NCBI GenBank assembly: GCA_037447655.1
Contig: JBBHKE010001258.1
Span: 1-64,000 of the forward strand
Length of the DNA: 64,000 nucleotides
Reading direction: 5' to 3'
Source: Zygnema cylindricum
Lineage: Eukaryota; Streptophyta; Zygnematophyceae; Zygnematales; Zygnemataceae
In this document: positions 7,543-40,669 of the stretch, in pieces
Position numbering within the stretch: position 1 is the first letter of the stretch
How the letters are laid out: every line of letters starts with the position of its first letter
Notes under the pieces: generated by a model
What the model saw: only the letters and a program-made list of their open reading frames with translations
Database searches by the model: none
Told to the model about the DNA's origin: nothing
Position numbers and translations under genes: made by a program

Positions 7543-7577
<35 letters not shown>

Positions 7578-7783: not shown

Positions 7784-7844
7784 AACATACATAAATACAT
7801 ACATGCATGCATGCATGCATACATATATACATACATACATAAAA

Positions 7845-7990
<146 letters not shown>

Positions 7991-8409
7991 ATATGTATAT
8001 ATATGTGTTTGTTAATTTATATCATATTTAGTATATATTATATGTTATCACTATATTATATGTTATATATATTAAATTTCATTTTATTATATTATATCTT
8101 ATTATATATTGTTATATTATATTGTATTGTAATGTATATTAAAATGTTGCAAAAATTGAACGAGAGATTAATTTAATTCGACTAAATAGATTAATAAACA
8201 GACTAATTAAAATAATTGTATCGGTAATGAGGTTTAAACGCCCTAAGTGGTAAACTGTCATGAAATTAAAATCGTATCGGTAATGGGGTCGGAGTAATAG
8301 GGTAATGACAACATTTTGTTTTCTTAGTGTTATATTTCATTATTTTTTTAAGGGGAGGAATAATTGGTTGCTTTACATAAAATTGAAGCGCTTTAAAAAA
8401 ATTGAAGCA
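7991..8409. other. AT-rich sequence, no gene seen
   Basis: Degenerate TATATTA units to about 8140 are followed by a short direct repeat around CGTATCGGTAATG (8217-8232 and 8271-8286). Nothing coding is visible. Confidence 0.35.
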
Positions 8410-19849: not shown

Positions 19850-21727
19850 AGAAACAAACCCAAGGGAAATACAAGTTTTAAGGCTAAATCACCACTAGCT
19901 GCAATTTCCTCATTGGGGGGGGTTCCCATCTCTCGCGAGGCAGCTCCTTCTACCGGAGAAGGAGGCAGCCCCGAGCCAAACAACACAGATTTAAGGGTAA
20001 TTTCACCAGTTTGGTTTGTCGGCCCAACTGGAACATCCTCTTCTGAGATCACCAACCTTACAGAGGAGGAAAAAGAAATGGGGGAATTAAGGATCTTTAC
20101 GAGAGATATTCGAAATCGCCTTCTCAAATTTTGAATTGCTATGGAAATCGTTCACCCAGTCTGAAATCAAGAAATATAAGGGCGGAGCCATTCCGGATGA
20201 CTTCAAAACCATGTTTTTCCCCATGATGGTAAATTATCTTGCTGGTAACGCTTTAGCTGATTATAAGGAGTGACAACCTCCCCTGATGGCTCCCAACATC
20301 AAAATTTCAGACCCAATCTTTGATGAGGCAGTCTTGCAGGTGGAAGCAGACTTGGATGCCGCTGCCGCCGCTCCTGTCAACGCCCTCTTCACAGAGGACA
20401 TGAAATTGCAGGCACACGGACGAGCCTATGTCGCTCAGCTTCAGGCCATTCAGGAGGCCACGACAGCCACTCGGATGGTAGCTGACCCAACCCCCTGTAC
20501 CACTCTTTTGAATGTTTGGAGACTCCTTTACACCTAGAGGAATGAATTTGCTATCAAGGAATTCACGAAATTCCGTTGCCAAAAGAGTGAAACACCCCGG
20601 ACTCTTTTTAACAGATTGTCCAGCCTCTGTCAAAAAACCAAACTCTTAACCATTGATCTTCCGGCAATGACAACCAAATATTTCATTGCCATCCGAAATT
20701 CGTTCGGACCGACGAGGCTGGCAACCCTCGATAATTGGATTGCGGGCCATGCCATCTAGGACGTTAATCCAACCGTCAAAGAAATATCTCTTGCCCCAAT
20801 GAAGCTTTATGATCACTTTGTCCATGGAGAGGCCTAGGAAAAGGCAGTAACTGGAAAAACCTGAGGGATTTTTGCAGGATTTGCCGAAGAAATGCCTCTT
20901 GAAAATGAAGAGTCGGCCGAACCCTTAGCTTTGCGAAAGCTCAAGGGGAAACAAGTGGCGATATCGGATCCTAACCTTCCATGGGGGCCGATGATTGTGT
21001 CTTCCTCTATAACAGTTTAAATTGTCATCAAACAGGTCATGGATGGAAGCGATGCCCTCAGAAGCTCAAACCGGAATTAGCTTTTAAGCAAAAGGAATGG
21101 GAGAAGGAGAGAGCTGAAAGGACAAAGAGGCAGCAAGAAAGGAAGCAAGGAGGAGGGTCAGACGATAAAACACCGGTTAACAAAGACTATTTCCAACTGA
21201 CACCACTATCTGAGACTTCAAGGATGTCACAAGCCCAGTTGCGACAAATAAAACTTCCAAAATTTGATGACGCACAAATTTCCAATGAATTGAGGGGCAA
21301 ATATACTACTGAGGGCTCTAAGTGTGAGGCTTGCGGTTTCATGGGTCACAAAGAAGGGCATTGCTTCCGAAATAATGAAGTTCCTAAAGAGATGATGGAA
21401 TATGCATTGTTCACCAGAGAAGGTGAAACTGCCGTGAATCCTCTCCCGTTGCAGCTTCTTTACCCTTGGGGACGCCGCACCCTGGAGAACCCAGAACGAC
21501 AGCCAACATGTCAAGCCCGAATAACACCGGAGGTTATCATCCAACAACAGAGCCACCAAATGGCAGCCATGGTTGCCGAATTGGAAGCGCTGCGATTAGG
21601 ATCGCCCTCCAAGACTCCAACTTTGACGGCGGCCAGAAACTCCACTGAAAGAAACATAAATTACTCCAGAAGCTGGCAAAGCTTGAATAGGAAACCGCAG
21701 CAGGCGAAGACGATGACGAAGTGATGG
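19850..21727 (+). pseudogene. Gypsy-A gag (capsid-like region and two zinc knuckles), degraded
   Basis: The N-terminal part contains LRVISPVWFVGPTG and EEEKEMGELRIFT (19990-20100), matched by Gypsy-B on the minus strand. The capsid-like part (20130-20860) includes CTTLLNVWRLLYT and SSLCQKTKLLTIDLPAMTTK, with several in-frame stops and a frame change near 20110. The nucleocapsid part is open from 20981 to 21724. Its first knuckle reads NSLNCHQTGHGWKRC, where the first Cys expected for CX2CX4HX4C is Ser. Gypsy-B keeps Cys at this place. The second, CEACGFMGHKEGHC (about 21330-21370), is intact. Gag would package element RNA into cytoplasmic particles. Confidence 0.85.
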
Positions 21728-21728
21728 G

Positions 21729-22931
21729 GTGGGACATGGAACCTCCAAAGGCACATCACCCACAGACCTCTTTTTATGGATCGTGGAATGTCGGTGTGGG
21801 GGACAATCGCAATCAGCTGCGCAACTCAACCTTGGAGCAGAGAAGGGACAAGCAAAAGCTCGCTCCACGAGACCACAACAGGAACGCCACTGGACCTCTG
21901 TCCTTCACCTCAGAGCCGTCATCGTGAACGACAACATAGGTCTTAGGATAAAATCTACAAACCCACCTCCTTCAACCGCAAATAAACTACCTCCCAGATT
22001 CGAAAATAACAGGACAACTAAAACAAGGAAGATGGAGGAACAAGCAAAGGAGGAAGAGACGCGTGACAACCAAGATTGGTTCGAAAAACATTTGGCGGAA
22101 CGTTTGGAGGATAACACGCCAAAAACGCCACAAGCGCCAGAATTTGACAAAGAAAGTGAGGAAGCAAGGTGGGGGGAAAAGGAAAATCAACCGCCAAAAC
22201 CAGGCGATTCCCCTAGTTCGTCGCCAAAAATTCAACCTCCTTCCTCCAAACCAGCAGTGATATTAGTATGGCATCTAATGCCCTACACTCTTACTCACGT
22301 GAAAACACTGGCCTCTTCCCATAACTTGCCGGAGGAAGTTCTCATCCAGGACCTCGGAAAGGAAATCCATTCACGAGGGGAGAAACACCGGGCCGATCAG
22401 GCCAGATCTGTTTTTTGGTCAGCAGACCCAAAGACCCCTATGATGGATAGGAACTACAAAACGTTATCTCTGGCGCTAATTCTCAACCTGACGGGGAATT
22501 TTAAACTCAACGGATACGGCGGGTATCAAGACGCAGTTGTCAATACAGGAGCACTCCGAAATCTAATCACCACATCGGCTTGGCAGCAAATGCCTGAAGA
22601 ACTCCGACTGGAAATCTTCCCCAGTGACATCTGCCTAAGTACTTTTAGCAGTGGGAGCCAACTGGTATACAGAAAAATCAAAGCTATGTTAATACAGTTC
22701 GCCGACGACGCAGGTCAAAAGGTCTGAATTCAGCTTCCCTTCCTGGTGGTGGAAGGTAAGCAGTTTGAGATATTATTGGGAATGGCCACCTGGACAAGGA
22801 TGAATATGGGATTAAGTGTGTGGAAGGAGCAGCTTACTGTTCGGGATCTTGAGGATCCAGAAGGAGTGAAGAAGGTGGTTCCCCTGGATATATGGAATAG
22901 GGGGAAAGATAATGCTCCCGTCGCAGGATGA
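21729..22931 (+). pseudogene. Gypsy-A aspartic protease region
   Basis: This frame differs from gag and overlaps its end. After a charged linker, LSLALILNLTGNFKLNG leads into DAVVNTGALRNLI at about 22530-22565. Here the catalytic D-T/S-G-A motif of retropepsins reads N-T-G-A, so the active-site Asp is replaced by Asn (codon AAT near 22542). The downstream flap-side sequence FLVVEGKQFEILLGMATW (about 22740-22790) follows a TGA at 22725-22727. The same frame then continues, with further stops at about 22931 and 23000, into the methyltransferase. The protease would cleave Gag-Pol, but this copy should be inactive. Confidence 0.8.
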
Positions 22932-23078
22932 TATCCCGTCAATGCCACCAACACACCTACGGAACTGCTCGCTAGCGCCACCGATATTGCAGACATAATA
23001 TAGCAATTCCATATTTCCAAGCGGTGGGAAGAGGGATACCAGAATAGGTTATTACAAATAACAAAACTTCGGCGAGAA

Positions 23079-24243
23079 GTGGACAAATCCTTGACAGTTG
23101 TTTTTGTAAACGAAAAAGAACCTCGGTTGGAATCTTCGGAAGTTCTGCCCAAAAATCAAAAATTCAATCGACAAGTGGTGTCATTATCTATCCCGGATTT
23201 TGGACTCCGGATATTATCCTTATTTTCTGGAATAAGCTCGGACCTCGAAGCTGTCTTGAAAGCTGGGCATAAAGTGGAGTCATATGTGGCCGTGGAAATT
23301 TCACTGGATGCTCGGGCCGTCAGTGAATACCGACTCCAACAACTCCACCAATTGTATCCCCAGCAACTTCCTGTATCCGCCATCTGCAGATCTCACCGAA
23401 GTGTTCCGCAAAATATAGACAATATCCTTAAGCCACATCTCGCTATGCTGGAGCAAGTAGATTTGGTGATTGCAGGATGGCCATGTCAACAAAACTCTCT
23501 AGCCGGGAAAGGCGAGGGAGATCAGGATAGCAGAAGTCGAACCTTCTTCCAGATGATCAAATTACTTTCCTGGCTGCAGCAATCCCAAGACCAACCAGTG
23601 GGGTACGTTTTGGAGAATGACCATCGGGAGATGATAAGAGAAAACAAGTCGCAAATAGCTGGAATAAGGTCAAGCAGATTCTACGAGCTCCACTTGTTTT
23701 CGATGCGGCGCAACTGGGATCCAGGGCTCACAGAGTTCGGGCGTACTGGACAAATTTGATACCTCTGTCAGTCCTGAACAAGCTCTTACAGAACCACAAA
23801 ACAGGTCCCCAGAAAACCCTGGACAAATTTTAGGGACAAGGCGGATGGCTACTCCCTTAACTAAGGCTAATCGTCCTCTGTTCTTCCAGTGCAACCAACC
23901 AGGAGCACCACGACGAGCACTGCCAGCATTGGTTTCCTTCCCCAATAGCCATGCGTATCGAGAGGGAGCGGCAGGAATGATATTTGACAGCAAAAGTGGA
24001 GTTTGGACAATGCCAACGGTGGAAGAACGAGAACAAGCCATGGGATTCCAACCAGCCAGTACGGCGGCACCAGGCATATTAGACCTCCAGAGGTGCAGCC
24101 TACTCGGACAAAGCATGGATCTAAATGCAATAACATGGATGATAAAACATTCTCTGGCCTTCTCTAGCCTACAGTCTCCGCAATCGAGGGATCGCTACCT
24201 TCAAGCTCCAAAGTTGTTAGCGGTGCAGGCCCACTTGCAGCTT
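23079..24243 (+). pseudogene. DNMT3-like C5 cytosine DNA methyltransferase domain inside Gypsy-A
   Basis: Motif I (S-adenosylmethionine binding) reads LRILSLFSGISSDLEAVL at about 23201. YVAVEIS (about 23283) fits the acidic motif II residue. Motif IV, VDLVIAGWPCQQ (about 23459-23492), holds the catalytic Cys in PCQ. RTFFQMIKLL and YVLEN (about 23605-23619) fit motifs V and VI. After a frame change just past LEN, another frame gives DAAQLGSRAHRVRAYWTNL (about 23702-23758), the motif VIII region in its DNMT3-like form. A second frame change near 23825 leads to MPTVEEREQAMGF and RCSLLGQSMDLNAITWMI (24010-24140), motifs IX and X. Total length is about 330 residues. It sits between protease and RT and shares the protease frame. 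DNMTs transfer a methyl group to C5 of cytosine. I infer capture by the element; two frameshifts inactivate this copy. Confidence 0.88.
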
Positions 24244-24535
24244 TAGGTGGGGAGGGAGGCAAGAAAAAACAATTTTTATCATCAAAATTTTCCAGTCCCA
24301 GCATTTTACCGAAATTTAAGGATTCCTCAGTGGGGGGGAGCGGATGCTCGGAGAGAGACAGCTTAGTGGAAGTTGTTAGCAGTAGCATTCTAACGGGAGA
24401 AGCTGAGGTTGACCTGCAGATAAGGATGGAATTCGATATCTCCCCCTGGGATAGACCCCCGGAGGCCAGGGCAGCGGTGGAACCAAGAAAGATGGATTGG
24501 ACCTTAGGGGAGCAGTTGGACCCTTAGCAAAAGGC
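24244..24535 (+). other. Gypsy-A linker between methyltransferase and RT
   Basis: A mostly open linker in the RT frame includes EVDLQIRMEFDISPWDRPPE and ends at a TAG near 24526. It has no recognised domain. Its position suggests spacer polyprotein sequence. Confidence 0.5.
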
Positions 24536-25634
24536 CCAGCTCTCCGACCTGTTGGAGAAGAACAAACAAGTGTTCTCCTGGTCAGACGTAGGCATCTACA
24601 AATGAACCCTTTTTCGAAACGATTTAATAGACGAGACTTCTACTGTTAGGCAGAAGCAGTACCCTCTCAGTTTCAAGGAAAAGGAGTTCATCACGGCAAA
24701 GGTACAAAATCTGGTAGAAGCAGGATTTGTTCCAAAAAGTACCGGACTCTATGGATTTGCGTCTCCAACCGTTCTCCCAACCAACAAAGACTCATCTGGG
24801 AAAACGATAGACTTTCGGATGTGTGGGGATTACCGAATGCTTAACACGGCAACTGTACCTGACCGATACCCAATGCCTACCCGGGAAGAGATTTTTGACT
24901 CGCTGGCCGGGGCCACCATTTACTCCACACTAGACATGAAGAATGGGTTCCACCAGATCGCTATGGAGCCAAAGCACCGAGAAAGGACAGCTTTTTCGGC
25001 AGGGTCCATGTTGTATGAATGGCTCTACATGCCATTCGGGCTAAAGAATGCGCCAGCCAAATTCCAACGTGCCATGGACGAGGCACTCCGGGGGATTGAT
25101 TATGCACGGTGCTATATAGACGATGTTATTATCTTCTCGAAGACATTCGAGGAACACTTGGAGCACATACAGATTGTACTCCGAGCTCTCCAAGCAACGG
25201 GCTTGAAATGTCACCCGGGTAAGGGAATTTTTGGGGTGCAGAAAATTATTTACATGGGACACGAAGTTACACCTGGGACAGTGGGTCCCCATATCGTCAA
25301 AGTTGCAGCCCTTGATGCCCTTCCCCCTCCTCAGGACGTCTTTGCACTCTGCACATTTTTAGGCCCGGCTAACTATTATCGGAGATTCATCCCTGAATTT
25401 AGCAGCCACGCTCAGCCTCTGAACCAGTTGCTGCGGAAAGACCAGGAGTGGCAGTCGACGGAGGAGCAACAGATTGCCTTCCAGTTCCTCAAGGATTCCC
25501 TGAAGCAACACCTAGTGCTCCGAATGCCTGATCACCAAAGACCCTTTCTCCTTTACACTGATTGGAGCCGGTTTGGATTGGGAGCTGTTTTAGCCCAACT
25601 AGATGATGCTGGTGCCAAATATGTGGTAGCTTAG
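24536..25634 (+). pseudogene. Gypsy-A reverse transcriptase
   Basis: The reading starts QLSDLLEKNKQVFSW (24536), meets an in-frame TGA at about 24603, and continues with PTVLPTNKDSSGKTIDFRMCGDYR. STLDMKNGFHQI (24940) is RT motif A with its Asp, FGLKNAPAKFQRAMD is the next conserved block, and YIDDVIIFS (about 25115) is the catalytic YxDD. FLGPANYYRRFIP (about 25360) is the connection block typical of Ty3/gypsy. A TAG at 25632 interrupts the RNase H start (LLYTDWSRFGLGAVL). The enzyme copies element RNA into DNA. This copy is broken only by point stops. Confidence 0.92.
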
Positions 25635-25930
25635 GCCAGTACAAGTAATAACCGAGCGGAGGGGAATTACAGCAGCTATCACGGGGAATTATTGGCGGCG
25701 GTATGGGCCATCCAACACTTCAGACCATACCTATACGGAGTCCATTTCACTCTGATCACGGATCACCAACCTCTCAAATGGATTATGGAGAACAGCAAGC
25801 TCACTGGCAAGCTCGCGAGGTGGGTGTTAATACTGCAGGAATATGACTTTGACATAATCCACCGGGCCGGAGAGATTCATGGGAATGCCGACAGACTAAA
25901 CAGAAATCCTGACCCTTCCACTAGAGATTC
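25635..25930 (+). pseudogene. Gypsy-A RNase H
   Basis: The frame continues after the TAG at 25632. YHGELLAAVWAIQHFRPYLYG carries the second acidic residue (Glu), FTLITDHQPLKWI the third (Asp), and GEIHGNADRLNRNPDP the terminal Asp block (usually NADALSR). It is the RNase H domain that follows RT in gypsy elements and removes the RNA template strand. It is open from 25692 onward. Confidence 0.88.
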
Positions 25931-25979
25931 CACCGAAGCCCGCCATGATGAGGATTGTGAAATCAGTTTGGGACTCATT

Positions 25980-27324
25980 CGAGCTTCCTCTGCCTTTATT
26001 TGGCTTCCTCAATCTGGGGGGGAAATGTCTACTTTCTCTGCAGACGTGGAGGGTCAGGCGCCTATAGGGGCCGGACGGAAAGATATTTGGAATGATCCCG
26101 ATACACTCCTATCTGTCCAACAAGGTTTCCCTCTTCCACATTTGTCAGGAGTGAAGTTATCTCGGGTGCAAACACGAATGGTGTGGGAAAGGGGCAACTT
26201 AATCCGAAAGTGGTTAGATGGGACGAGGAAAGTGGTTCCTCCCCCGGCCAACAGGGAGACTCTTATTTTTAACCTTCACCAGCAGTGTGGCCATTTTGGG
26301 CAGAAACGGACCACCTCCTTGGTCGCAGGATCGTACTAGTGGCACAAGTTGCGGACCCAAGTCAACCAGATTGTGCAAACGTGTTCCTCTTGTGACCGAG
26401 TCAAAGCAGCTTTCGACAAAAAGGGGGGTGCTCAGATTCATTCCCTTCCCATCATGGGGATGTTTTATCGGTGGTCTCTGGATCTGCTAGGTCCTCTCCC
26501 CACTAGCAGACGAGGGAACCGCTTTGTGTTGGTAATGATAAAGGATTTTTCCAAGTGGATCGAATTGGTGTTCTTACCTAGGAAGGAGTCTAAGGCAATT
26601 GCAGACACATTCTTGCAGAGAGTGCTTTCCCAATTTGGGGCCCGAGCCAAAGTTCTGACTGACCAGGGCTCCCAATTTGCGAGAGAATTCTCCAACTTGT
26701 TGGAATTTTGCCTCATCAACCACTGGTTGACCAGCCGAGACCACCCACAAGCCGACGATTTGGCCGAAAGGTGTGCAGACGGCGAAGCGGTCACTATGTA
26801 AATATGCTGTGGAATATGATCTAGGAGAGTGGGATAGAAGGGTGCTTTGGATCGCCATGGGGTACCGATTTAGCCTGCAAACATCCCTCCACTCCTACAA
26901 TCCATATTTCATTTTGTTTGGACGGCATCCCATCCTCCCCGGCGCTGCCGCTGCCCAAGGAGTGGTTCTTCCGGAGATAGACCGCATGGGAACGGTCGAA
27001 AAATTGATTGCCGACAGGGCCAAGGTATTTCACTAGGAAATGCCTTTGGCCATGGGGAACTTACAAGCAGCTCAGCACCAAGATCAACTCTGGTATTCGC
27101 AACGCCGCAGCGGGAATTTTGTCCCGCGGCAACGGCGATTTCTACACAGGGATTTCGTGTATCGGATGCAACAGAAAAACGACACTCTGGACATTTCAGC
27201 GGCGAGGGTGATTTTGAAGGTAGTGGAAGTCTCCAATAAGGGGGTCTTGACACTTGAAGGGAACGATGGGCGGAAGATCAAAGAAAATCAGATCAATGTG
27301 GCTCCCTATCACCTCCGGGGATAA
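25980..27324 (+). pseudogene. Gypsy-A integrase
   Basis: The HHCC zinc-binding part reads LHQQCGHFGQKRT (26275) and QTCSSCDRVK (26375), split by a TAG at 26337. The catalytic core shows WSLDLLGPL (first Asp, about 26480), VLTDQGSQF (second Asp, about 26655) and PQADDLAERC (Glu, about 26750; the usual Gly-Gln after HPQAD is changed). A frameshift follows at about 26790. The C-terminal part resumes in the next frame with LHSYNPYFILFGRHP and, after a TAG at 27034, FVYRMQQKNDTLDISAARVIL to 27324. No chromodomain is recognisable. Integrase joins the cDNA ends to host DNA. Confidence 0.9.
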
Positions 27325-27558
27325 GAAGACAAACCTACTTTCCACCTTACCTATTTTGTTGATCCCTCTTTGTGTTCCTCCAAATGCCTCTCATCTTCCT
27401 CCCAGAATTCAGTACTGGTCTCTGATCGATGCGACCAATGTTAGCATCAATCTTGTCTCCCCTCCTCTTGGGACCCCCGTCTTGAACCCCCTGCTCTTTG
27501 GTTCTGCGGGAACTGCGAATTGGGGGGGTAATATTTCAAAGTCTTAGTCACAATTGAC

Positions 27559-27573
27559 TAAGAGGGGGGGAAA
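27559..27573 (+). other. Gypsy-A polypurine tract
   Basis: The tract TAAGAGGGGGGGAAA lies directly before the inferred 3' LTR start. This is the position expected for the plus-strand primer of reverse transcription. Confidence 0.7.
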
Positions 27574-28852
27574 TCAAAGACCCGGCTCCACCTCTAAGGG
27601 TTTCCTCCTTTCCTCCGTCCAGGAGGGGGAAGGCGAGGGGAGAGGGGATATCTTTTCGCCCTCCCCAAGCACTCATCCCCACCTTTGCATACATGCCCAT
27701 ATGAACAAGGCGCGCATCATTGGGCACAAGCATGGTTGTGGTGAGCATTCGCATTTTGGGAAAGGTTGTTTGTAGGACTCCAATGCAAATCACCCGGGCA
27801 GTGGGCCCTCCTCTGATGTTTGCGGCACGCTCAACAACTGTCAAGATGATTTGCTTCTTAGGAACCCCTTTTATCTTACCAAGAATTCCAGGGCCCTTTT
27901 TCCTCTGTACGGTCATTAAAGTACGGGGAAAGAAGCGCACTCAGCCAGGCCAAATTATTCTATTTTCCTAACTAAACGGAACGCACTTTATTTCGCCCCT
28001 AACAGAGGTGGGACGACAAAGTTACTCCATTCCAAAGATTACCATCCTGTTAGATGTGACCAGTTGCCAACTGTCCCATTGGGGGCTACATTGTTGAAAC
28101 AAGTAACTTTTGGGATAGTCTTGTAGATTTTGCTGTTGGCTATCAGTAAGATGTTAGTTCAAGTCCACCAGCCGAATAGAGCATTTATTAATGTGAGTCA
28201 AAGTTAGGCGTTTCACGTCAATTTAGAACTTTGTTGCTCATGATTGTGTTATAGAAAACCACGTGGCTTCTAATCTAGCTGGAGATAGTTGCCTAACTTT
28301 TTGCCCCAATTGTACTACAACATGTTTTGTCTTATGTGTGTACGATAACAATTCCTGGCCGGTGATTGGCTCCTGGTATTGCTTTGACTTTTGGTACTAT
28401 CGGTAGGACAAACTTTGCTTGTATAAGGCACTTGGGGCCAAGGGAGACAGGTTGCTGTTTTAGTACTCTCTCCTGAGAAAAACCCTAGAAATTCCAGCAA
28501 ACTTTCTTGTGGAGAACTTCTGTTTTGCATGTGATTGTGACCCTATTGCCATCTTGGTTTGCATCCATCCTTTGTGGAAATCGTAGTCCGGTTGGGTGGT
28601 TGGCACCGTCTTTCCTGTTTTGGGCGGTTTGGGAACTGGTGTTTATTCGAAACCAAGAAGGGTCTTCCCGGTTCCGGGTCGCGGAAATCGAGGAGTTAAG
28701 GAGGCCTTACCTGTTCCGGGGTTTTTAGAGGGAGATTTTGTCTCCTTTTGATTGTCCACGTTACGTTTTGAGGGTAGGTTGAGCTTGCTTGCTATTATTC
28801 CACACTCTAACTTTATATCTCTATTTTTCTAAGGGCAAGGTGATATTGTTAA
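27574..28852 (+). repeat. Gypsy-A 3' LTR
   Basis: The start is set by the polypurine tract and by a second copy of the first 250 bp at 28855-29107. The end is set by the inverted LTR at 42158-43132, which matches from about 27880 up to AAGGTGATATTGTTAA. A probable promoter, GTATAAGG (28421-28428), is conserved in both copies, followed by CACTTGGGG and ACTCTCTCCTGA. The termini do not show the usual TG..CA, so the exact ends are uncertain by a few bases. Confidence 0.75.
28421..28428 (+). promoter_or_regulatory. TATA-like box in the Gypsy LTR
   Basis: GTATAAGG followed by CACTTGGGG is conserved in the inverted LTR (minus strand, about 42571-42579). It lies near the middle of the LTR, where a transcription start at the U3/R border is expected. 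Confidence 0.55.
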
Positions 28853-28854
28853 TA

Positions 28855-29107
28855 TTAAGGACAGCTCCACCTCTAAGGATTCCTCCTTTCCCAGCCAGGA
28901 GAAGGGAAGGAGAGGGGAGGATATCTTTGCGCCCTCCCAAGCCACTCCTCCTCTGCTTGCATGCATGCTCAAAGAACAAGGCGGGCAGCATTGAGCACAA
29001 ACATGGTTGTGGGGAGCAATCGCATTTTGGGGAAGGGTGTTTGCATGACTCCAATGCCAATCACCCGGGCAGTGGACCCTCCTTTGATTTTTCCAGCACG
29101 CTCGACA
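28855..29107 (+). repeat. Partial second Gypsy LTR, head-to-tail with the Gypsy-A LTR
   Basis: This segment matches 27574-27840 in the same orientation (GCTCCACCTCTAAGG, CATGGTTGTGG, GCATTTTGGG, CACCCGGGCAGTG). It begins two bases after the end of the first LTR and stops at 29107, where inverted Gypsy-B methyltransferase sequence begins. Confidence 0.75.
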
Positions 29108-29735
29108 TGTCTTCAAAACCGCTTCCAAATCAGAACTAATTCCGGAAAATAGAGATAAAATACGCAGTCCGGATTCAGGGACTGCCAATGACACCACTTG
29201 TCGATTGACTCGTTACCGGACTTGGGTCTCGAAGTATTAGACAATGGTATTGAAACGGCTTCTTTCCATGTTAAGGCTGAAATTGCCCTATCCACTCCCC
29301 GCTGGAGTTTTGCTACCTGCAATAATCTATTCTTATATTCCTCTTCCCACCGCTTAGAAGTTGGAAATTGCTAGATTTCTTAGGCGATATCTTTAGAACT
29401 GCCAAACAGTTCCGTCAGAGATGATGTAGTGTACACAGGGTAGTAACCAGACACAGGGACATTTGTCCTCCCCCGGTTTCATAATCCAAAGGAACCACCA
29501 CTTTGGTTCCTCCCGGATTTTTGGGGTCCCGGACGGTACATTGTTGTTTCCACACCCACAAACTCATATTGAGCCGGGTCTAAATGGCCATTCCTAACAG
29601 AATTTCAAATTGAGTCCCTTCCACCACCAAGAAGGGAAGCTCAATTTTCACCCGTTGGCCTCCGTCATGAGAAAACACGATCGCCATGGCCTTTATTATT
29701 CCATGGACTTGTTGACTACCGCTTTTTACGGTGCT
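29108..29735 (-). pseudogene. Gypsy-B protease-methyltransferase linker and methyltransferase motif I fragment
   Basis: Minus-strand positions 29185-29110 read GLRILSLFSGISSDLEAVLK, identical to motif I of the Gypsy-A methyltransferase. The upstream 29200-29735 sequence corresponds to Gypsy-A 22690-23150 (protease C-terminal end plus linker), with frame breaks. The domain stops abruptly at the junction with the partial LTR, so no catalytic motif is left. Confidence 0.8.
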
Positions 29736-30570
29736 TAAGCAGATATTGCTTGGGCAGATTTCGGGCTAGAGTTCCTCGGGCATTCATTGCAAAGCGGAGG
29801 TGGTAATGAGGTTGGGGAGAGCTTCGGTGTCAACCACAACGTCCTGGTTCCCCCGTACCCGTTGAGCTTAAAGTTCCCGGTCCGGTTCACTATAAGAGCC
29901 ACTGATAAGGCTTTGTAGTCCATATCCACTATACGGGTTTTACTATCGGTGGACAAAAATACTGCGGTTGGCGAAGTGGTCCTGTTTACCCCCCTCTTTC
30001 CGAAGTGGATCTCCTCCCCCAATGCCCAAATGAGGATTTCTTCAGGCAGGTTGTGGGAGGATGCTAGAGTCTTCACGTGTGTGAGGACATAGGGCATGAG
30101 GTGCCAGACTAGCCTGAAAGCCTGTTTGGAGAAAAGAAGTGTTGCTTTCGTTGAAGATGGGGATGAGTTGGGTTCCTGCAGATCTTGATCTTGTCCTTCT
30201 TTCTCACTCTCAGAGTCGTAATCCGGGATAAGAGGGGTTTGGGGAGTGTCATTCTCCGGGCATTCAACCATATATCTCTCAATCCAGTCAGATTGTCTTT
30301 TTTCTCTCTTTCCATTGACTCCTTCTCTCGCTGTTGTTTCTCGTTGTGGTAATTTTTGAAATCGTGAGGCAATTTTGGTTTGGGAGGAAGAGAAAAGGGT
30401 TGGTTGGGTTTGATTCCCAGGTCAATGTCGCTGTTCAGCATTACTTCGCGGGGAGTAAATGACAAAGGCCCTATAGCTTTCCAGTTGTGGTCCCGCTGAC
30501 CCATTTTCTGCATGTTCTGTCTTTGCATCGAGGTGGAATTGCGGAGTTGGCATCGGTTGTCTCCCACCCC
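29735..30570 (-). pseudogene. Gypsy-B protease region
   Basis: The matching linker and LVWHLMPYVLTHVKTLASSH (about 30100) parallel Gypsy-A (LVWHLMPYTLTHVKTLASSH). FKLNGYGG is followed, after a frameshift near 29850, by the active-site region, where Asp is kept but the following Gly codon of D-T-G reads Glu. A stop lies shortly downstream. This copy and Gypsy-A therefore lost the protease by different mutations. Confidence 0.8.
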
Positions 30571-30699
30571 AACATTCTAAGCTCCCGACAGAAAGGTTCA
30601 CGCATGGTGGGCATTTGGGGGTTCCAAATCCCAGCCCAATAGGTCGTCATTGTTGACACCCGCTATGCCTTAAAGCTCAAGCTCCGCGAGCTTCTGTAA

Positions 30700-31373
30700 C
30701 AACTCATGTCTCTGCTTCTAGAGTCGTTGCGCTGCCATGAGAGGAGCAGTTCGGGAAAAAGATCCCAAGCGGAGGGCAACCAACTCTACAGCCATGGCCG
30801 CCAGCTGCTGAATGAGCTGTTGTATGATGATCTCCGGCATAAGCTTGGCTGGAGCAGCCGGGGCTCGCTCAGGTCTCTCCGGTGTGGACGTAAGTTTGCG
30901 CCCCCAAGGGTAAAGAAGTTAGAGTGGGAGAGGGTTAACAACGGTTTCTCCTCCTTCACTAAACAAAGCAAATTGCATCATTTCCTTGGGTACTCCATTT
31001 TTCCGGAAACATTGCCTTTCCTTGTGCCCCAAAAAACCACAAGCTTTGCACTTGACGCCTTTCGTGGTAAATTTACTCCAGATTTCGTTGGAGATTTGAA
31101 CATCATCAAACTTTGGGAGTTTGATTTGCCGCAACTGTGATTTGGACATCTTAGAGGTTTCGCTCCGAGGAGTGGGGCGGTAAGTCTCCCTCGTTACCGG
31201 TGTCTTATCCTCTCCCCTCCCTCCCTTAAGCCTTTCTTGTTGTTTCAAGGTCCTTTCTCAAAGTTCTTTCTCCCATTCCTTGAGTTTCAAAGCCAATTCT
31301 GGTCTAAGTTTCCTGGTGCAGTGCTTCCACCCATGACTCGGTTGCTGACAATTCATGCAATTATAGAGGAATA
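30700..31373 (-). pseudogene. Gypsy-B gag C-terminal part with two zinc knuckles
   Basis: Minus-strand reading gives CMNCQQPSHGWKHC (about 31355-31315), a complete CX2CX4HX4C knuckle, and CKACGFLGHKERQC (about 31050), a second complete one. A TGA at 31258 interrupts the linker between them (EKEL, stop, ERTLKQQERLKGG). The upstream part is displaced by Copia-2; the gag reading resumes at 37734 on the far side of that insertion. Confidence 0.85.
31369..31373. repeat. Copia-2 target-site duplication, left (GAATA)
   Basis: GAATA directly precedes the Copia-2 left LTR and recurs at 37729-37733 just after the right LTR. Removing the element and one copy rejoins the Gypsy-B gag sequence in the register seen in Gypsy-A. 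Confidence 0.9.
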
Positions 31374-32421
31374 TTAAACTCTGAGACCTCCATAAGTCCT
31401 CAGAGTAGACAGCTTCCAAGAAGCCTCTAGGATAACCTTGACCCCTTTCTGTTTCAGCAAAAAGAACTGCCACCTTCGCAAACAATAACTCTGACCAACT
31501 TCACCCCTGTGAAGGCAAGACTCGCTTGAGTCAATAGCAAAAAGAATCTGTGAATTTTCTCCCCTGAGCAGTAAGTTATGGAGGGTCAAAGTTGACCTTT
31601 TGTATAGAAGCTCTCTAAGAGAGAGGGTCCTATCTCCTAATTTTTCTATCTCTCTCACAGACTCTATCTACTGATGTACGGAGCCAATCAAAATACAATT
31701 CCGTACACAAAAGTACAGCTGTCGGTGTACTTTCTGTACGAACACTGTACGACATGGCCTTAATGTCGACACGTGGTATGTCCGGATTCACTCCCTTAAT
31801 CCTCGGAGATGCCGCGATCCATTGTCATTCCGCCACGTGTCATCCAATGTGGCGATGACCATAAACCGCCGAAATCCTCTTCCGCTATCTTGGCGTTAAT
31901 TCCAGTCGTCCGATTAAATTCACATTTAACCGTAGCCGTAATAAATACATGCGCGGTATTCGTTTCATTAGAGAAATAAATGCGCGGTATTGGTTTCTTA
32001 TCCGTACCGTAATCCGTACTTTTACATTATTGGATCTATGTATCCCGTGAACAGTTATAGTTAAATGAATTATCCTATTAGAAAATCTTTAATTAATTAT
32101 TAAACCATATAGTACATAACACTAATTCTAAACTTAACGACTAAGGCTACCGTCTACCAGCTGTCTGTCGGCCGGTAGGTATTAGGATCAAATCCTATGA
32201 ACAGCATATACCTTTTAGTAAATAAACCCCAAACTAATATATATTTCCCATAAACCTCTGGATAGCCTAGGTAGCCATGGCTCTAGCTCCCTTTCCAATT
32301 TCTCAATGACTGCGACAAGTTTGAGAGTTGGAAAGAGAAGTTAGAGGTAGACTGCCTTGGCTTCTTTCTATATTTCTATTTAGACCTAGAAAATACTTAA
32401 AATGGACCATTAATTTTTACA
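31374..32421 (-). repeat. Copia-2 3' LTR (left)
   Basis: It is a direct repeat of 36674-37728. It begins TTAAACTCT (the right copy has TGAAACTCT) and ends TTTTTACA, so the ancestral termini were TG..CA. A polypurine tract (AAATAAGGGGAT on the minus strand) lies immediately inside at 32422-32434, marking this as the 3' LTR of a minus-strand element. Confidence 0.92.
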
Positions 32422-32434
32422 ATCCCCTTATTTT
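32422..32434 (-). other. Copia-2 polypurine tract
   Basis: The minus strand reads AAAATAAGGGGAT directly before the LTR start TGTAAAAATTAATGG. Confidence 0.75.
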
Positions 32435-32649
32435 CTAGTCAATCTTTAATTTCAGACCACACTTCTCCCTTCAGAAAATTAGCTTAGGGGAAGGCACAGG
32501 TTTGGTCATCATATCTGCTACCATCTCACTATGTGGTCGGTATTCTAAACTGATTATTTTGTTTTCTACTTTCTCTCTAACAAAGCTAAGTCTGATGTCC
32601 ATGTGTTTGGCTTTAAAATGATGTTTAGGATATGCAGAAATAGCGATTG

Positions 32650-33270
32650 CTACCTAATTATCACAAAAAAAATCTGCACACCACTCTTAAGGTGACCAAG
32701 TTCACCAAGCAAAGACTTGACCCACATCAATTCTTTTACAGCAAAGCAAGAGGCCATATACTCAGCCTCCATGGTGGACTGAGCAATAACCTTTTGTTGT
32801 TTGCTACTCCAACAGCAAGCCCCATCACCCACATATAATACATATCTAGAACTACATCTCCTCATCAGAGCATCACCATAACTAGCATCACTCCAAGTAG
32901 TGATGTCAGTATTCTCCCCACCCAAATGCAACCATAGATCCCTAGTTCCTATCAAATATCTAAGGACTCTCTTAGCTGCCTCCCAATCCCTCTTAGTGGG
33001 AGCATTTAGACTTCTACTCATCACTCCTACAGCTGCAGCTAAATCCGGCCGAGTAGAATTCATAAAATAGATTAGACTTCCCACTACTTGCCTGTAAGGA
33101 ATAGTCTGCATGAACTTCTGTTCTTCAGGAGATAATTCCTCGTCTAAGACTATGACTCCTTCTTCCTCACTCCCCTCACTTCCCTTCTTCAACTCCTTTG
33201 GAGTTGTGCAACTATTAGCTTTATCCATTTGAAATTTTTCAAGCATGTTCCATATTGCTTATTTTTGAGT
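32650..33270 (-). pseudogene. Copia-2 RNase H
   Basis: STRPDLAAAVGVMSRSLNAP, DWEAAKRVLRYLIGT, TTWSDASYGDALMRRCSSRY and STMEAEYMASCFAVKELMW follow the standard copia RNase H order and include the SDA..Y and TEAEY-type acidic blocks. The frame is open from 33246 to 32650. A stop near 33260 separates it from RT. Confidence 0.9.
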
Positions 33271-34070
33271 CAATCATATAATTTTCCTTTTTCGGTCTCT
33301 CTCTACTTGTATTCCCAAAATATATTTTGCTTCCCCCATATCCTTAATTTCAAATCTCCCCTTAAGATCGGTTTTCAGTTTATTAATTTTTTCCATTGAT
33401 TTACTTAAAACAAGCAAATCATCAACATAAATTGCAATAAATATAAAACCTTCCTCATCTTCGAAAACATAGATTGAGTAAACAGAGCTGATCCGGATAT
33501 ATCCTAGACCGGTAAGAAACTCATCAAGCTTCTTATTCCACTGCCGAGGCGCCTGTTTCACACCATAAAGAGATTTAATCAGTCGGCATACCTTACTCTC
33601 ATCTCATTCCTCCACAAACCCTCCGGGTTGTCGCGACATATCTCCTCATCCAATTCTCCATGCAAAACGGTTGTCTTGAAGTCCATTTGGTGGACTTCCA
33701 TGTCTTCCGCTGCTGCCATGCTGAGAAGTATGTGGACAGAGGGAAATTTGACCACCGGGGCAAAGGTTTCCTCGTAGTCAATTCCCTCCTTTTGTGTAAA
33801 TCCCTTTGCCACTAGTCAGGCCTTGTAGCGCTCGATTGCGTTATCTGGGTTCAGTTTTAATTTCAAAACCCACTTACAACCGATTGGTTTTCGGTTAGGT
33901 GGACAATCCACCAGCTTCCAAGTATCGGATGCCATAATTGGGGCCATCTCCTCATTGCTGGCTGTCTTCCACCGATTTATTTCTGGACAAGTCATCGCCT
34001 TTCCATAAGTTTGAGGTTCATCTTGATGAGATAGTTTAGTTACCTTGTTATTAACTTGTTCTTCTTGCAT
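33271..34070 (-). pseudogene. Copia-2 reverse transcriptase
   Basis: The domain starts with EINRWKTASNEEM and IGCKWVLKLKLNPDNAIERYKA. After a TAG comes LVAKGFTQKEGIDYEETFAPVVKF, MDFKTTVLHGELDEE (motif A), and after a break KQAPRQWNKKLDEFL and IAIYVDDLLVLS (catalytic YVDD, about 33430). IKDMGEAKYILGIQ closes the domain. Stops or frame changes occur near 33814, 33575 and 33272. Confidence 0.92.
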
Positions 34071-35720
34071 TCTTTTGCTACTTCTCCTTCCCCCCTCAAA
34101 ATATGAGGCCGGAATAGATGGTTATCGTGGATTCTATCGAACAAACTCGGCTTCTCCCCTATCCCTTGATTCAAAATCAATTTCCACCACGTCTTCCGTT
34201 TCGGGTAGAGTTGTCACTGGAGTTTCCACAGCCGAGTCCTTTTCGGTCTGATTTGTACCTGCAAGAATGTCATCTTCTCTAAAACCTATATAGTTAGGAA
34301 GCTCAAAGTCATTGGAATTTTCTGACTCAAATCTGATTTTTACTGACTTTGTATATTTGAAGGGATCCACAGACTTTCCTTCATCCATAACTACTAGATG
34401 CTTTACTAAGATTATATCTTTCCTTTTTAGATCATAAACTCTATATCCTTTAACATCCTCATCATATCCTAATAAGTATCCCGATTTTCCTTTAGAATCT
34501 AGCTTCCAATTAGACCGATCTGTATCTAGACTGAATACTTGACTACCAAAAACCTTTAAGTGAGATATGTCTGGTTTCTGGCCTGTCCATCTCTCATAAG
34601 GTGTTTGATCTTTTATAGCTGAAGTAAGAACTCTATTCTTGAGGTTATTAACACAGTTCATTGCTTCTGCCCAAAACCTTTTTCGTATCTTCTTATCTGA
34701 CAACATACTTCTAGCACTATCACTTAGTGTTCTATTTAACCTTTCAGCTACCCCATTCTTTTCCGGGTTTTCTGGAACTGTCTTTTGGTGTTGGACCCCA
34801 TCTTCCCTCAGAAAATCCTCAAACTGGTTAGAAGTATACTCTCCACCATTGTCACTCCTTATTCTCTTGATTGGAGTTTCATAAAGTTATTCGCTCCATG
34901 CTTTATATTGTCTAAAATAATCCTGAGCTTCAGACTTGTTTTTCAAAAAATAAGCTCGAGAATACCGAGACCAATCATCAGTGATAGTCATCATAAATCT
35001 CTTCCCCCCCGCTGAGGGCACTTTAGCCGGTCCCCATATATCTGTGTGTACTAGATCTAGAATTTTTTCTCCCTTATAGATGGCTATTTTAGGAAAGGGT
35101 AATCAGTGTGTTTTACCTTGAGCACATCCACTACAATCACTTATATTATCACTCTCACTGAACTTAATCCCTTCCACCACTCCCATCTTTTTCATCTCTC
35201 TTAACTTGTCTAGATTCACATGCCCAAGCCTCTTATGCCACATCATAATATTATGAACACCAGCATAATAAAGTTTCTTCTTTTCATTACTTAAAACCTG
35301 CCTAAACATCCCATGGCTACCTTTCTCAACAATGAAATAGACATCCTCCTCCAAACTAGCAGTAAAGACTCCTTCCCTAGTGGTAGTAAAAAATCCCTTA
35401 TCATCTAGTACGGATGTAGAGATGAGGTTTTTGTTCAGCTCCGAAATAAACAATACATTGGAAAATGTTACTATGGATGTCTTTTCTTCTACTAACACTT
35501 TCAAATCTACCGATCCTACAAGAGTAGTGGTGACTATCCTCCCATCCCCGTACTCTATCTCTACGGTGGGAATATTTCTTATCTTAGTGAACAGGTGCCT
35601 ATCCTTACACATGTGCAAGGAGGCACCTAAATCTACAATCCAGCCTGCTTCACCTTTCAATCCACCGTAAGCACATTTCTGCCTTCGTGGAATTTCGACC
35701 TCGTTTTACGCCTCAAACTC
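34071..35720 (-). pseudogene. Copia-2 protease remnant and integrase
   Basis: WIVDLGASLHMC (about 35640) is the protease active site, with Asp kept but the canonical Ser of D-S-G changed to Leu. GAG-pre-integrase reads MWHKRLGHVNLDKLREMK with CSGCAQGK (zinc-binding HHCC). The integrase core keeps all three acids: LVHTDIWGP (about 35055), RSDNGGEY (about 34855) and NGVAERLNRTL (about 34760). One TAA interrupts the core near 34890. The C-terminal part SGYLLGYDEDVKGYRVYDLKRKD resembles the Copia-1 remnant. Confidence 0.9.
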
Positions 35721-36669
35721 CTCATCTAAAAGGAGCTCATCGTCTTCGTCCTCGGATTCCGCCTCATGTACTTGTGTCACAAGGGCCTTTTTCCTTCCTC
35801 TCAGGGTACCACCAGTCTGCCCCTCCTTTAACCGAAGCTCGGTTAGCTTAGTGCACTCTGCCATATAGTACCCAAGTTTCTTACAAAAATGACATAAACC
35901 TTTGGGAGCTTTTGGTCCAAACTCGTCGGTCTGATTTTTCTACTCCCCCCCCCTATAGGTTCCGACCGGTTTCCGAGAATCCTTGTTCCTCCAATCGGTC
36001 GCAGTTGCCAAGGCTTGGCCACTCTTTCCTCCCCTTCGGATCTCAATCGTATTCTACCGAACGAGAATCATCCCTACCACTGAGTTCCATATCCACCTTG
36101 AGTCCGGCAATTCTTGCACACGGTTAACTATGTTTTCGAACTCATCGGGTATCTTCATCAGTAAACAGTTAACCTTTTCTTTTTCACTAAAATCTTTTCC
36201 CGCACTCTCTAGCTCCATGAAGAGTGTAGCAAGCTCATTGCAAAAATCCAAATTTCTTCCCCCCTTTATATACATACTCCTTAACTTTCTGATCAGCCAA
36301 CTGTTGTTGCTGAATGGTACCACTTCGGTACATCTCTATGAGAGCCATTCAAAGATCGGATGCCCTTTCTACCTGCAAATGAGGACATGCAAGTCCTTGA
36401 GTGAGATGGCGTAGAATGAAGTGCTTTGCCGCCATATTGTCAAAGTCCTAGGTTTCAGTATCATTCTCTTCCTCTGTTGAAGGTGGATCCTCTTTCCTGG
36501 TGACTCTACTTCCTCGAAACCCTGGAGGAATTCGAAGACTTGATGGACGCCCAAATTGTCCACTCATTATCCCCCAAAACCTTTTTTCGCATAGAGCTCC
36601 TATCATCATACTTTCCCAGTATATGAAGCCAGTTCCATTAAATATTGGTACCTTAAAAAGTGGGCCCAT
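35721..36669 (-). pseudogene. Copia-2 gag
   Basis: The likely start is the ATG at 36669-36667, which overlaps the primer-binding site (MGPLFKVPIFNGTGFIYW, the typical copia gag opening). Downstream, FSEKEKVNCLLMKIPDEF (about 36180) fits the copia gag core (UBN2 type). The zinc knuckle CHFCKKLGYYMAEC (about 35880-35850) has Tyr where the CCHC His should be. Frames are broken several times. Confidence 0.85.
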
Positions 36670-36673
36670 AACC
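36658..36673 (-). other. Copia-2 primer-binding site of the internal initiator-tRNA type
   Basis: The minus strand reads TTTCA (LTR end), then GGTTATGGGCCCAC with no gap. GGTTATGGGCCC is nearly complementary to the anticodon stem-loop of initiator tRNA-Met (complement GGTTATGAGCCC), not to its 3' end. This matches the half-tRNA priming known from Drosophila copia and some plant copia lineages. Confidence 0.6.
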
Positions 36674-37728
36674 TGAAACTCTACGACCTCCATAAGTCCT
36701 CAGAGTAGACAGCTTCCGAAAAGCCTGTAGGATAACCCTAACCCCTTTGTGTTTCAGCAAAAAGAACTTCCACCCTCGCAGTCAATAACTCTGACCAACT
36801 TCACCTTTGTAAAGGCAAGACTCCCTTGAGTCAATAGCAAAAAGAATCTCTGAATTTGCTCCCCTGAGCAGTAAGTTATGGAGGGTCAAAGTTCACCTTT
36901 TGTATAGAAGCTCTCTGGGATAGAGGGTCTTATCTCCTAATTTTTCTAAGTCCTATCTCTCTCACAGACTCTATCTACTGATGTAAAGAGCCAATCAAAA
37001 TACAGTTCCGTACACAAAAGTACAGCTGCCGGTGTAATTTCGGTACGAACACTATACAACATGGCCTTAATGTCGACACGTGGTATGTCCGGATTCGCTC
37101 CCTTAATCGTCGGAGATGCCCCAATCCAATTTCATTCCGCCACATGTCGTATGATGTGGCGATGACCATAAACCGCCAAAATCCTCTTCCGCGATCTCAG
37201 CGTTAATTGCGGCTGTCCGATTAAATTCACATTTAATCGTAGCCGTAATAAATACATGCGCGATACTCGTTTCATTAGAGAAATAAATACGCAGTATTGG
37301 TTTCTTATCCGTACCGTAATCCGTACTTTTACATTACTGGATCTATGTATCTCGTAAACAGTTATAGTTAAATGAATTATCCTATTTGATAATGTTTAAT
37401 AAATTATCAAACCATATAGTACGTAACAGTAGTTCTAGACTTAACGGCTAAGGCTACCGTCTACCGGCTGTCTGTCGGCCGGTAGGTACCAGGATCAAAT
37501 CCTATGACCGGCATATACCTTTTAGTAAATAAACCCCAAACTAATATATATTTCCCGTAAACCTCTGGATAGCCTAGGTAGCCATGGCTCTAGCACCCTC
37601 TCCAATTTCTCAATGACTGCGACAAGTTTGAGAGTTGGAGAGAGAAGTTAGAGTTAGACTGCCTCGGCTTCTTTCTATATTTCTATTTAGACCTAGAAAA
37701 TACTTGAAATGGACCATTAATTTCTACT
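36674..37728 (-). repeat. Copia-2 5' LTR (right)
   Basis: It is the second copy of the 31374-32421 repeat, starting TGAAACTCTACGACC and ending TTTCTACT (final CA lost). The primer site lies just inside, and GAATA follows at 37729. Confidence 0.92.
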
Positions 37729-37733
37729 GAATA
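37729..37733. repeat. Copia-2 target-site duplication, right (GAATA)
   Basis: It matches 31369-31373 exactly and is followed by Gypsy-B gag sequence in register with Gypsy-A. Confidence 0.9.
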
Positions 37734-40600
37734 CTCGCTCATCTGCACCCAAAGATGGTTCTGACCCGCTGTTAACCACTTGCTTCCCTTTAAGCTTCCT
37801 CAAAACTTGAAGTTCAGCGGTTCCTCCTCATTCAAGGAGGTTTCCTCGGCGAATAGTGCCAAATTTGCTCGGGCTTTGCTGGTCACGGCCTTCTCTCTTG
37901 CTTCATTGTGAACGAAGTGGTCATAAAATTTCATTCCCACTAGTGAGATTTATTTGGCGGAGGGATTGATGTCCTGAATGGCTTGTCCGGCAATCCAGTT
38001 ATCTAGAGCAGTCTGCCCTGTCAGTCCGAATGAATTACGGACAGCGATGAAGTATTTAGTTACCATTGCCGGAAGGTCAATCGTTGACAGTTTCGTTTTT
38101 TGACAAAGGCTTGAGAATCTGTTGAAAAGAGTCTGGGGAGTCTCGTTTTTCAAACATCGCAATTCCGTGAATTCCTTGATTGCTGACACGTTCTTCTCTA
38201 TGTAGAGGAGTCTCCAGATATTCAGCAAGGTGGTACAAGGGTTAGGGTTGGCCACCATGCGAGTTGCTGCCTAGGCTTCTAGGATCGCTTGCAGCTAGTT
38301 AACATAGGCACTTCTTTGCGCCTGTAGTTTCATCTCCGGTGTAAATGTAGCAGTCACAGGGGTCACCCCAGCCGCGGCCAAGTCAGCCTCCGCTTGCAAA
38401 AGAGCGGCATCAAGGGCTGGATCTTAGATTTTGATGCTAGGAGCCATCAAAAGAGGTTGATGCTCCTTGTAATCCGCCAACGCCCCTCCAGACAGGTACT
38501 TGACCATCAGGGGGAAAAGGGTGGTTTTGAAGTCATCCGGAATGGCTCCCCTTGTTACTTGTTGATTTTCGATTGGGTCAAAGATTTCCACAACAACTCG
38601 AAATCTGAAACTGCATTCCCCGAGCTATCTCCGGTATAGATCCGAATATCCCCCATTTCCTTTTCTTCCTCTGCAGAGTTGGTGTAATGGGAAGAGCAAG
38701 GCCCAGTTGGGCTGACAAACTGAGCGGGCGAGATGACTCTCGTATCCTCTTCCTCGAGATCAAGACCGGGTCCTTCCGTGCAAGAAGGTGCAGCCCACTG
38801 TGGTGTAGATCCCCCTCCCACTGAGGAAGAACCAGCGCCGGAAAAGATAGTTGGAGGTAGGATGTCCCCCACTACTCCTCTATGTCCAGTAGAATATTGT
38901 GGATCCCGGAGAATGGTTGCCACCGATAGGATGTGGAGACGCGGCTTGTTCATAAGCTTTTGGGGAATTGCTGGTGGCAGAGACGAAGAAGGGGATGGAC
39001 ACGGAGACGGATGAGCCCTTGCGGGGAAAGGTGTCAGTCTCCTGGTTCGCCTCCTAGAGGTCTCGGGAGGTGAAGTGCCGGAGCTAGAGGAAAGGGAGCG
39101 CCGGTGAGGAGGGGAATAGGCAAGTACGTCGTATTTGTAGGGTAACACATGCGAACCAGGCGACCCACGGACAGCTGCAGCGGGAGAGATGGATGGCGAA
39201 GGAGAGGGATCTGAACAGTCTCGGGGATCGGTGGTGGGTTCCGGGAGTGACAGAAATAAGGTGGAGGAGCCGAAGATGGGAGCTCCGGGGATTTCTAGGA
39301 AAAGTGGGAGGAGGGGTTGGAGCTCTCAAGAGGATGTGAATCCTCTCGTCAGGTCGTAACTCCACTAAAGCCTCCACGGCAGTAGACACCTCCACCGAGA
39401 CAAAGGCAGTCTCTCCCCAAAGAGCCGAAGCGGTTCCAAAAAGTAAATTTGCACCTAAACCCTCCACATTAGGGCATGTGTTTTCCTCCCCTTTCCGCTG
39501 AAGGAGAGGCTCTTGGCTTGGCTCCGAAGAAGGCATTTCAGGCTGAGTACTGGCGAGAGGAGAAGTCCACGCTGCTAAGGCTAATGAATGCGGCACTATC
39601 TTTGGTGTAAGAGGAATCTTCCCGCTAAAAATCCCACTTGTCCTACGCCGAGCTTCCCTAATGAGCGTCAATTCTTGTTCCCATGCCTTTCGCCTCTCTT
39701 CCTCTAAGGCCTCCCAATCTACCGTGACGGGTCCGGCCCTCGCCATAGCCTGTCCCTGGGATTTTAGAACCTCCACTAGTTCCTTCGCTTTTTCCACTAC
39801 TTTGGTAAGATCCGCTATCTCTATCCCCGGAATTTCGAGATCATTGGGTCTAGTCCGCCACCATCCCTCAAACGAATCTTCTGGTCCCGTACCCGGAACC
39901 TTAGGATCGGTAGGTCTGGATCGCCTGATCCCCTCGGCTGGTCGATTATGAGTAGCGCTGGGGACTGGTCTCTCGGTGGAGGGTGAAATAGGTGTTGGGG
40001 ATGTCTCCTCCTTGGTAAGAGGTGCAAATCTCCCCTTGCTGTCACGGTGGTCAAACCTCTTTCCCCTCAATGGATCCCGTGCGTCCCTCTTAATACCCCC
40101 TTCTCCTCTACGAAGCCACGAAGAAGTACTCCCGTGGGTGGGTCTGCTGGCTGCGGTGTCCTGAGAGGAAGATGGGGGAGGGCGAGAATAAGGAGCTTTC
40201 AGTGACCGGTTTTACATCGACTGGGAAGAGCTGCTCTCCGAAAAATTGCACAAAATCTCCACCAATCCTCCCACGCGTCTAATAACTCTGACTTGATCTG
40301 TCCGAGCCACTCTCTATACCAGCTCCTTCTTCACCTTGAGCTCATTAAGGTCGTGAAGAGCAAGGAGTTCCTTACAACCTCGGCGACGTGGATCCGTCAA
40401 AACCGCAAGGTCAATTTGGATCTCGCCCCGGGTTCTTGGATCTGGTGTGTAGTTTGATTTCCGGAAGAGGACCAATATGGGACTCCTTTTGCGCCTGTCT
40501 CTTGAATCGGGCCCTATGAAACACATTGTTGCTTTCTTAGGCCTGGGCCCGAGCTTCCCTCCTTTCCTCACCATAGGCCCTAGCGGCCTTTGCCAAAGAA
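37734..40600 (-). pseudogene. Gypsy-B gag N-terminal and capsid-like region
   Basis: The minus strand gives a long, nearly open stretch. The 40070-39084 frame is Pro/Ser/Arg-rich with EIPGIEIADLTKVVEKAKEL and WEALEEERRKAWEQEL. Next, 39148-38555 contains TRVISPAQFVSPTG and EEEKEMGDIRIYT, homologous to Gypsy-A. The 38258-37950 frame reads PCTTLLNIWRLLYIEKNVSA and TKYFIAVRNSFG, the capsid-like core shared with Gypsy-A 20480-20760. Stops (38555, 37950, near 37770) break it. A 40574-40314 frame upstream (LVLFRKSNYTPDPRTRGE) appears to be the more N-terminal part. Confidence 0.8.
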
Positions 40601-40669
40601 GGGTTATGTTCGGAAGTCAGACTTGGAGGCGGAGGAGGAGGAGAATGTTGGTTTTTGGAAACCTTTAGT

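Follow-up and report, generated by a model that had tools for sequence, protein, structure and literature searches.

In a 64-kb window of the conjugating green alga Zygnema cylindricum (the whole stretch of DNA that we analysed, with no N and a GC content of 42%) we found a dead copy of a Ty3/gypsy retrotransposon, here called element A, whose Pol region carries a predicted cytosine methyltransferase (DNMT) domain of the animal type, DNMT3, and whose relatives elsewhere in the genome look intact and freshly inserted. Cytosine methylation is one of the main marks that hosts use to keep transposons silent, and a transposon with a selected writer enzyme of its own therefore opens this arms race to direct tests. 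What makes the finding valuable is how many and how young the copies are, and that their ends can be read; with young and dead copies of several subfamilies gathered in one genome, methylation data could reveal what use the enzyme has for the element. Our best explanation as a whole, that the window holds a dead member of a Ty3/gypsy family with a DNMT3 in Pol that would methylate the element itself, and whose cDNA would pass through a form with joined ends, has in our estimate a probability of roughly 0.55.

The initial annotation had placed the DNMT motifs in the right order between protease and reverse transcriptase (RT), and we recovered them in the order I-IV-VI-VIII-X: LSLFSG, VIAGWPCQ and LEN share one frame, and GSRAHRVRAYWTNL and LLGQSMDLN follow, each in a different frame. 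The domain of the window copy is split among three frames (23166-23636, 23624-23776 and 23827-24180, with the catalytic Cys codon at 23484-23486): one shift falls at about 23.62 kb, another within 23.78-23.83 kb, and further stops occur in the rest of element A. With its DNMT frame broken twice, this copy is unable to make the enzyme, a point absent from that annotation. The match to PF00145, proposed earlier as a check, was obtained with the frame 23004-23759 (+) at an E-value of 7.8e-9 (35.8 bits, cut-off 22), and tblastn with P0001, a relative from another source, covered 23202-24135 in three frames (E 4e-71).

Regarding the class of the enzyme, 29 of 29 PDB matches to the window domain were DNMT3A, DNMT3B or DNMT3C. 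The profile search gave 91.7 bits for DNMT3A, followed by 4onj, which we take to be tobacco DRM (53.5), DRM2 (46.1), HhaI (36.6) and tRNA/DNMT2 (31.6); DNMT1 and CMT were both unnamed among the 60 profile-search matches listed. DNMT3 ranked first by profile, Foldseek and VIA-align 2, and this agreement of profile and structural comparisons confirms the predicted domain as DNMT3-class. The catalytic domain of DNMT3A/DNMT3B, the best match by profile and structure, has an identical order of motifs, whereas identity in the structural alignment is about 25% and the algal motif IV reads Trp-Pro-Cys-Gln or Trp-Glu-Cys-Gln. Plant DRM, a relative of DNMT3 and the second-best class in the profile search, is reported to have rearranged catalytic motifs (PMC5890265); a DRM identity was ruled out, since motif I comes first in the window and in its relatives, without any rearrangement. 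The earlier interpretation stands where it recognized a DNMT3-like enzyme inside the Pol of a Ty3/gypsy element, a combination known from a charophyte, and this part is borne out by profile, structure and genome copies; its further suggestion was that the family may methylate its own cDNA or insertions and alter host silencing.

Around the domain, RT, RNase H and integrase (rve) follow one another in the order typical of Ty3/gypsy elements (Table 1), with an in-frame stop in the RT/RNase H part between 25634 and 25635. The gag part, which we take as such from its CCHC zinc knuckle, and the protease-like ORF, whose NTGA is presumably a protease motif with DTGA as its counterpart in the genome copy L002, gave no Pfam match. 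No left end of element A was found. The joint between repeats B1 and A2 is decayed in this copy (27829-27846, 3 mismatches).

Table 1. Features of elements A and B in the window (positions are those of the window).
Feature	Position	Strand	Evidence or remark
Element A, Ty3/gypsy with DNMT3 domain	19906..29107	+	homology to element B from 19906; terminus GACA at 29107
Gag part, CCHC zinc knuckle (assumed gag)	20975..21721	+	112 codons alignable to element B
Protease-like ORF, NTGA motif	21717..22727	+	open frame; recurs before DNMT in several genome copies
Predicted DNMT3-class domain, element A	~23166..24180	+	PF00145, tblastn; PDB matches DNMT3 only
RT and RNase H	24606..26339	+	RVT_1 2.3e-28, RT_RNaseH 7.4e-23
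Integrase: core 26340-26801, C-terminal part in other frames	26340..27323	+	rve 2.9e-12; tblastn of P0023, P0010
Polypurine tract, directly 5' of repeat B1	27559..27571	+	sequence; position same in C1344, C1042, C449, C1407
Repeat B1	27572..27836	+	direct repeat with B2, 83%
Repeat A2	27837..28852	+	69% identity with A1 of element B across 27893-28852
Repeat B2, right end of element A	28853..29107	+	
DNMT start, element B	29111..29206	-	32 codons shared with A
Element B, same family as A	29112..43101	-	cut short at its own DNMT; split by nested Copia element 31376-37727
Repeat A1, left end of element B	42158..43101	-	

A second member of the family, element B, lies next to element A in the opposite orientation. 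Where the two match over long stretches, their DNA is 66-72% identical, and in the 32 DNMT codons that can be compared they show 18 synonymous and 5 non-synonymous differences (4/1/18 by codon position), against 3.5 and 1 synonymous and 18.5 and 21 non-synonymous differences when the same codons are read in the two shifted frames; across 112 gag codons Ka was 0.21 with a saturated Ks. The DNMT of element B ends at the right end of element A, so that A seems to have inserted into it, a reading of the right junction alone; the remainder of element B was not found to the left of element A. As to the surroundings, the Copia-type element nested in B (31376-37727, - strand) has LTRs at 31376-32420 and 36676-37727 that are 91.6% alike, another Copia-type element at 51184-55399 (- strand) shows open frames of 429, 605 and 403 aa, the 605-aa one with integrase and Pol domains, and a long microsatellite of CATA and TA units occupies positions 7500-8173.

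The search of the genome (352.8 Mb in 2689 contigs) revealed how frequent the family is. With the best 123 of 782 first-look candidates scored for PF00145 and the best 123 of 1756 for P0001, the union of the matches listed comprises at least 203 distinct DNMT places on 180 contigs. The window's own DNMT is missing from these listed places, which means that further copies were missed, and allelic contigs may inflate the count. We inspected 24 loci, namely 10 from the PF00145 list (the six at its head and four chosen for their long frames), 12 of its 13 weakest matches, L007 and L008, and 23 of them belonged to this DNMT-Gypsy family, the exception being L007, presumably a chromomethylase-like host exon. 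An RT less than about 3 kb downstream of the DNMT was present in 17 of the 24 (8/10, 8/12 and L008). Seen from the other side, among the best 118 RT matches scored of 3879 candidates, 58, the window included, had a DNMT of the matches listed 438-1446 bases upstream, and none of the 118 had one of those matches within 3 kb downstream; for the other 60, presence and absence of a DNMT are both possible. Intact-looking copies, for which a genome search had been suggested at the outset, turned up with a single open and intronless frame across DNMT, RT, RNase H and integrase in C1374 (1520 aa), C544 (1525 aa) and C1344 (1650 aa).

These neighbourhoods bear directly on the possibility that the domain is a passenger, a chance fragment of a host gene captured by one copy, as the broken frame in the window might suggest. 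The recurrence of the DNMT in the same place in those 17 loci and upstream of those 58 RT matches, together with its presence in element B and, fused to RT or integrase, in the relatives P0015, P0009 and P0023, leaves such a capture with practically no probability, and we consider it refuted by element B, the genome copies and the RT neighbourhood. Neither of the outcomes that the initial annotation had named as fatal to its own proposal, the lack of a PF00145 match or a domain found in this copy alone, occurred.

Several lines indicate that the domain is maintained. Among stop-free copies covering 85% of the query, a choice that favours low values, the DNMT Ka/Ks ratio ranged from 0.095 to 0.34 for the 7 usable of 21 pairs in one subfamily and from 0.13 to 0.25 for all 3 pairs of the other; these codon comparisons show the DNMT to be under purifying selection. 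The RT ratios were 0.07 and 0.11 (one usable pair each), below those of the DNMT, a difference that we count against our best explanation. All 23 genome copies compared keep the catalytic Cys and, in motif VI, the Glu-Asn pair, and the motif VIII Arg residues occur in 22 and 19 of them, whereas the residue preceding the catalytic Cys is Pro in 9 copies and Glu in 14. In the relatives P0010 and P0012 motif IV also reads Glu-Cys-Gln in place of Pro-Cys-Gln. Purifying selection combined with kept catalytic residues makes use of the DNMT as an enzyme likely. It would be rather surprising if the domain owed its maintenance to a structural or DNA-binding function within the particle, with catalysis not being its purpose: the Pro to Glu change in 14 of the 23 copies and a Klebsormidium nitens counterpart without reported activity in yeast (PMC5890265) agree with such a role, and the conservation of the Cys of motif IV, of the Glu and Asn of motif VI and, nearly so, of the motif VIII Arg argues against it.

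Retrotransposons of this kind are already known; what is new here is the host, the copy number, the subfamilies, the young copies and the structure of the ends. The work of de Mendoza et al. (2018, PMC5890265) reported KnitGypsy-Dnmt3 of K. nitens, which shares with our family an intronless DNMT3-class domain in a Gypsy Pol and reported purifying selection, and for which methylation of the retrotranscribed DNA was suggested. Its repeats were described as DIRS-like together with Gypsy domains (PMC5890265), and thus the split layout itself was already known; the Zygnema element likewise has split repeats, yet its integrase is of the rve type. Compared by description, the family of Zygnema differs in its host, in its several subfamilies, in its near-identical young copies and in that ends and joint could be read; the phrase 'target site' is absent from the main text of PMC5890265. 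Copies in K. nitens were reported as fewer than those of Symbiodinium (PMC5890265), and the Zygnema genome has at least 203 DNMT places. The SymbioDIRS-Dnmt3 elements of dinoflagellates also carry a DNMT3 domain in a retrotransposon Pol, but they are described as DIRS elements (PMC5890265), whereas that of Zygnema has a Gypsy-type RT, RNase H and an rve integrase. Two of the dinoflagellate DIRS domains were reported to methylate CG in yeast, and no methylation was seen there with the Gypsy domain of K. nitens, a result regarded as inconclusive by its authors (PMC5890265). A 2025 survey likewise states that some DNMT3 reside in retrotransposons of streptophytes and dinoflagellates (PMC12344493). 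The titles and abstracts found contained no DNMT-Gypsy elements in another alga, from which we claim no absence from print.

In the explanation that we favour, the DNMT would be produced together with RT and integrase, in whose support we count the single open frame that runs from the DNMT through to the integrase in C1374, C544 and C1344, would enter the same particle as these two enzymes, and would methylate the new cDNA of the element, probably at CG, before or at integration. An enzyme acting on the host genome or chromatin, either near insertion sites or by diluting silencing, with the element's own cDNA unmarked, seems unlikely to us; at least 203 listed places would provide the dosage, and effects of this sort are discussed for dinoflagellates by de Mendoza et al. 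(PMC5890265), yet the position in Pol between the protease-like ORF and RT suggests that the enzyme works in the particle, and the methylome of K. nitens was reported as land-plant-like (PMC5890265). The CpG content of the window does not help in this respect. The observed/expected ratio in 2-kb bins was 1.14-1.59 in the region 1-16 kb and 0.49-0.87 in the TE-rich 16-44 kb, and 0.62-0.63 in three open or little-broken copies as well as in the dead window copy. Because the depletion is common to Copia elements, and open and dead copies of one subfamily are alike, we rejected CpG loss as evidence for self-methylation; methylation may extend over the entire TE-rich part.

The organization of the repeats sets these elements apart from an ordinary two-LTR layout, which is ruled out by the order A1 ... 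pol, polypurine tract, B1, A2, B2 in C1344, C1042 and C449; in the stretches examined, the full layout was not recovered in the remaining six of ten copies, and C1407 showed B1 and B2 but no A1. The identity of A1 with A2 is 100% in C1344 (over 931 bases), 83% in C1042 and 80% in C449, and that of B1 with B2 is 99.6%, 94.8% and 95.7%, respectively, with 98.3% in C1407. Identical repeats, along with only 4 differences in 4959 aligned bases between C1344 and C1407, whose right flanks are different, show that insertion is recent. We rejected the idea that B1 and B2 stem from a small nested LTR element, because the polypurine tract lies directly 5' of B1 and the layout recurs elsewhere. The B1-A2 joint reads exactly GACA-GC-TGTC in 7 copies (C1344, C1407, C449, C2602, C1984, C1042 and C1374) and is decayed in C571, C46 and the window copy. 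The young copy in C1344 has TGTC...GACA ends with TTGG flanking both sides, a 4-bp duplication that is exact in one of the three copies with both ends visible (C449 has TCAT/GCAT and C1042 none); with that one exact case of three, the ends fit an rve integrase joining TG...CA termini.

Split repeats combined with integrase-type ends raise the question of how the cDNA ends are made. We propose that they would derive from a joined form, kept by the internal GACA-GC-TGTC copy, which would act as a template for the ends, and that the integrase would cut it. More tentatively, and with the odds against it, all these features could be read jointly as an old and widespread Gypsy lineage with a DNMT3 and a permuted LTR, starting with TGTC in one repeat, ending with GACA in the other part and keeping its joined ends internally with a 2-base spacer. 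It would represent a third type of arrangement, between those of LTR and DIRS elements, with a DDE integrase that cuts joined cDNA, and the family would be active today in a conjugating green alga and methylate its own cDNA.

The protein search yielded 23 relatives, among them two from Closterium sp. (NIES-53, NIES-54) and two from EukProt. P0015 has the DNMT followed by an RT 52.6% identical to that of the window, and P0009, P0014 and P0023 have integrase-side sequence after the DNMT with no RT match between them, so that a second domain order may exist within the family. We also built a tree in which 13 of these 23 relatives were placed together with the window and 18 genome copies; some of its branches are long (P0010 the longest). 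The window clusters there with other Zygnema copies (7 rows, 100/99) and next with C412 (96/94); P0001, P0015 and P0020 join this group (11 rows, 96/95), and 11 further genome copies form a separate clade (100/100). When genome copies were left out, the window fell in no starred set. Such a distribution of sequences suggests a wide spread of the family over algae.

Other searches gave 37 and 1 pattern matches for viral contigs, none of them confirmed, and 579 candidates for longer polyproteins, none of them scored. NAC-domain matches in the genome numbered 11 on 6 contigs, some apparently allelic. Dynein heavy chain matches were confined to one contig (G000:C1490:43760-45602, - strand), in a long open frame, which would mean either few host dyneins or a foreign contig. 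Taken together with the chromomethylase-like exon of L007, the NAC and dynein results would suit a streptophyte host, perhaps a conjugating alga. Finally, a family RT match at G000:C961:71509-72534 (- strand), 89% identical to that of the window, belongs to a frame whose reported open length, 5743 aa, far exceeds that of Pol.
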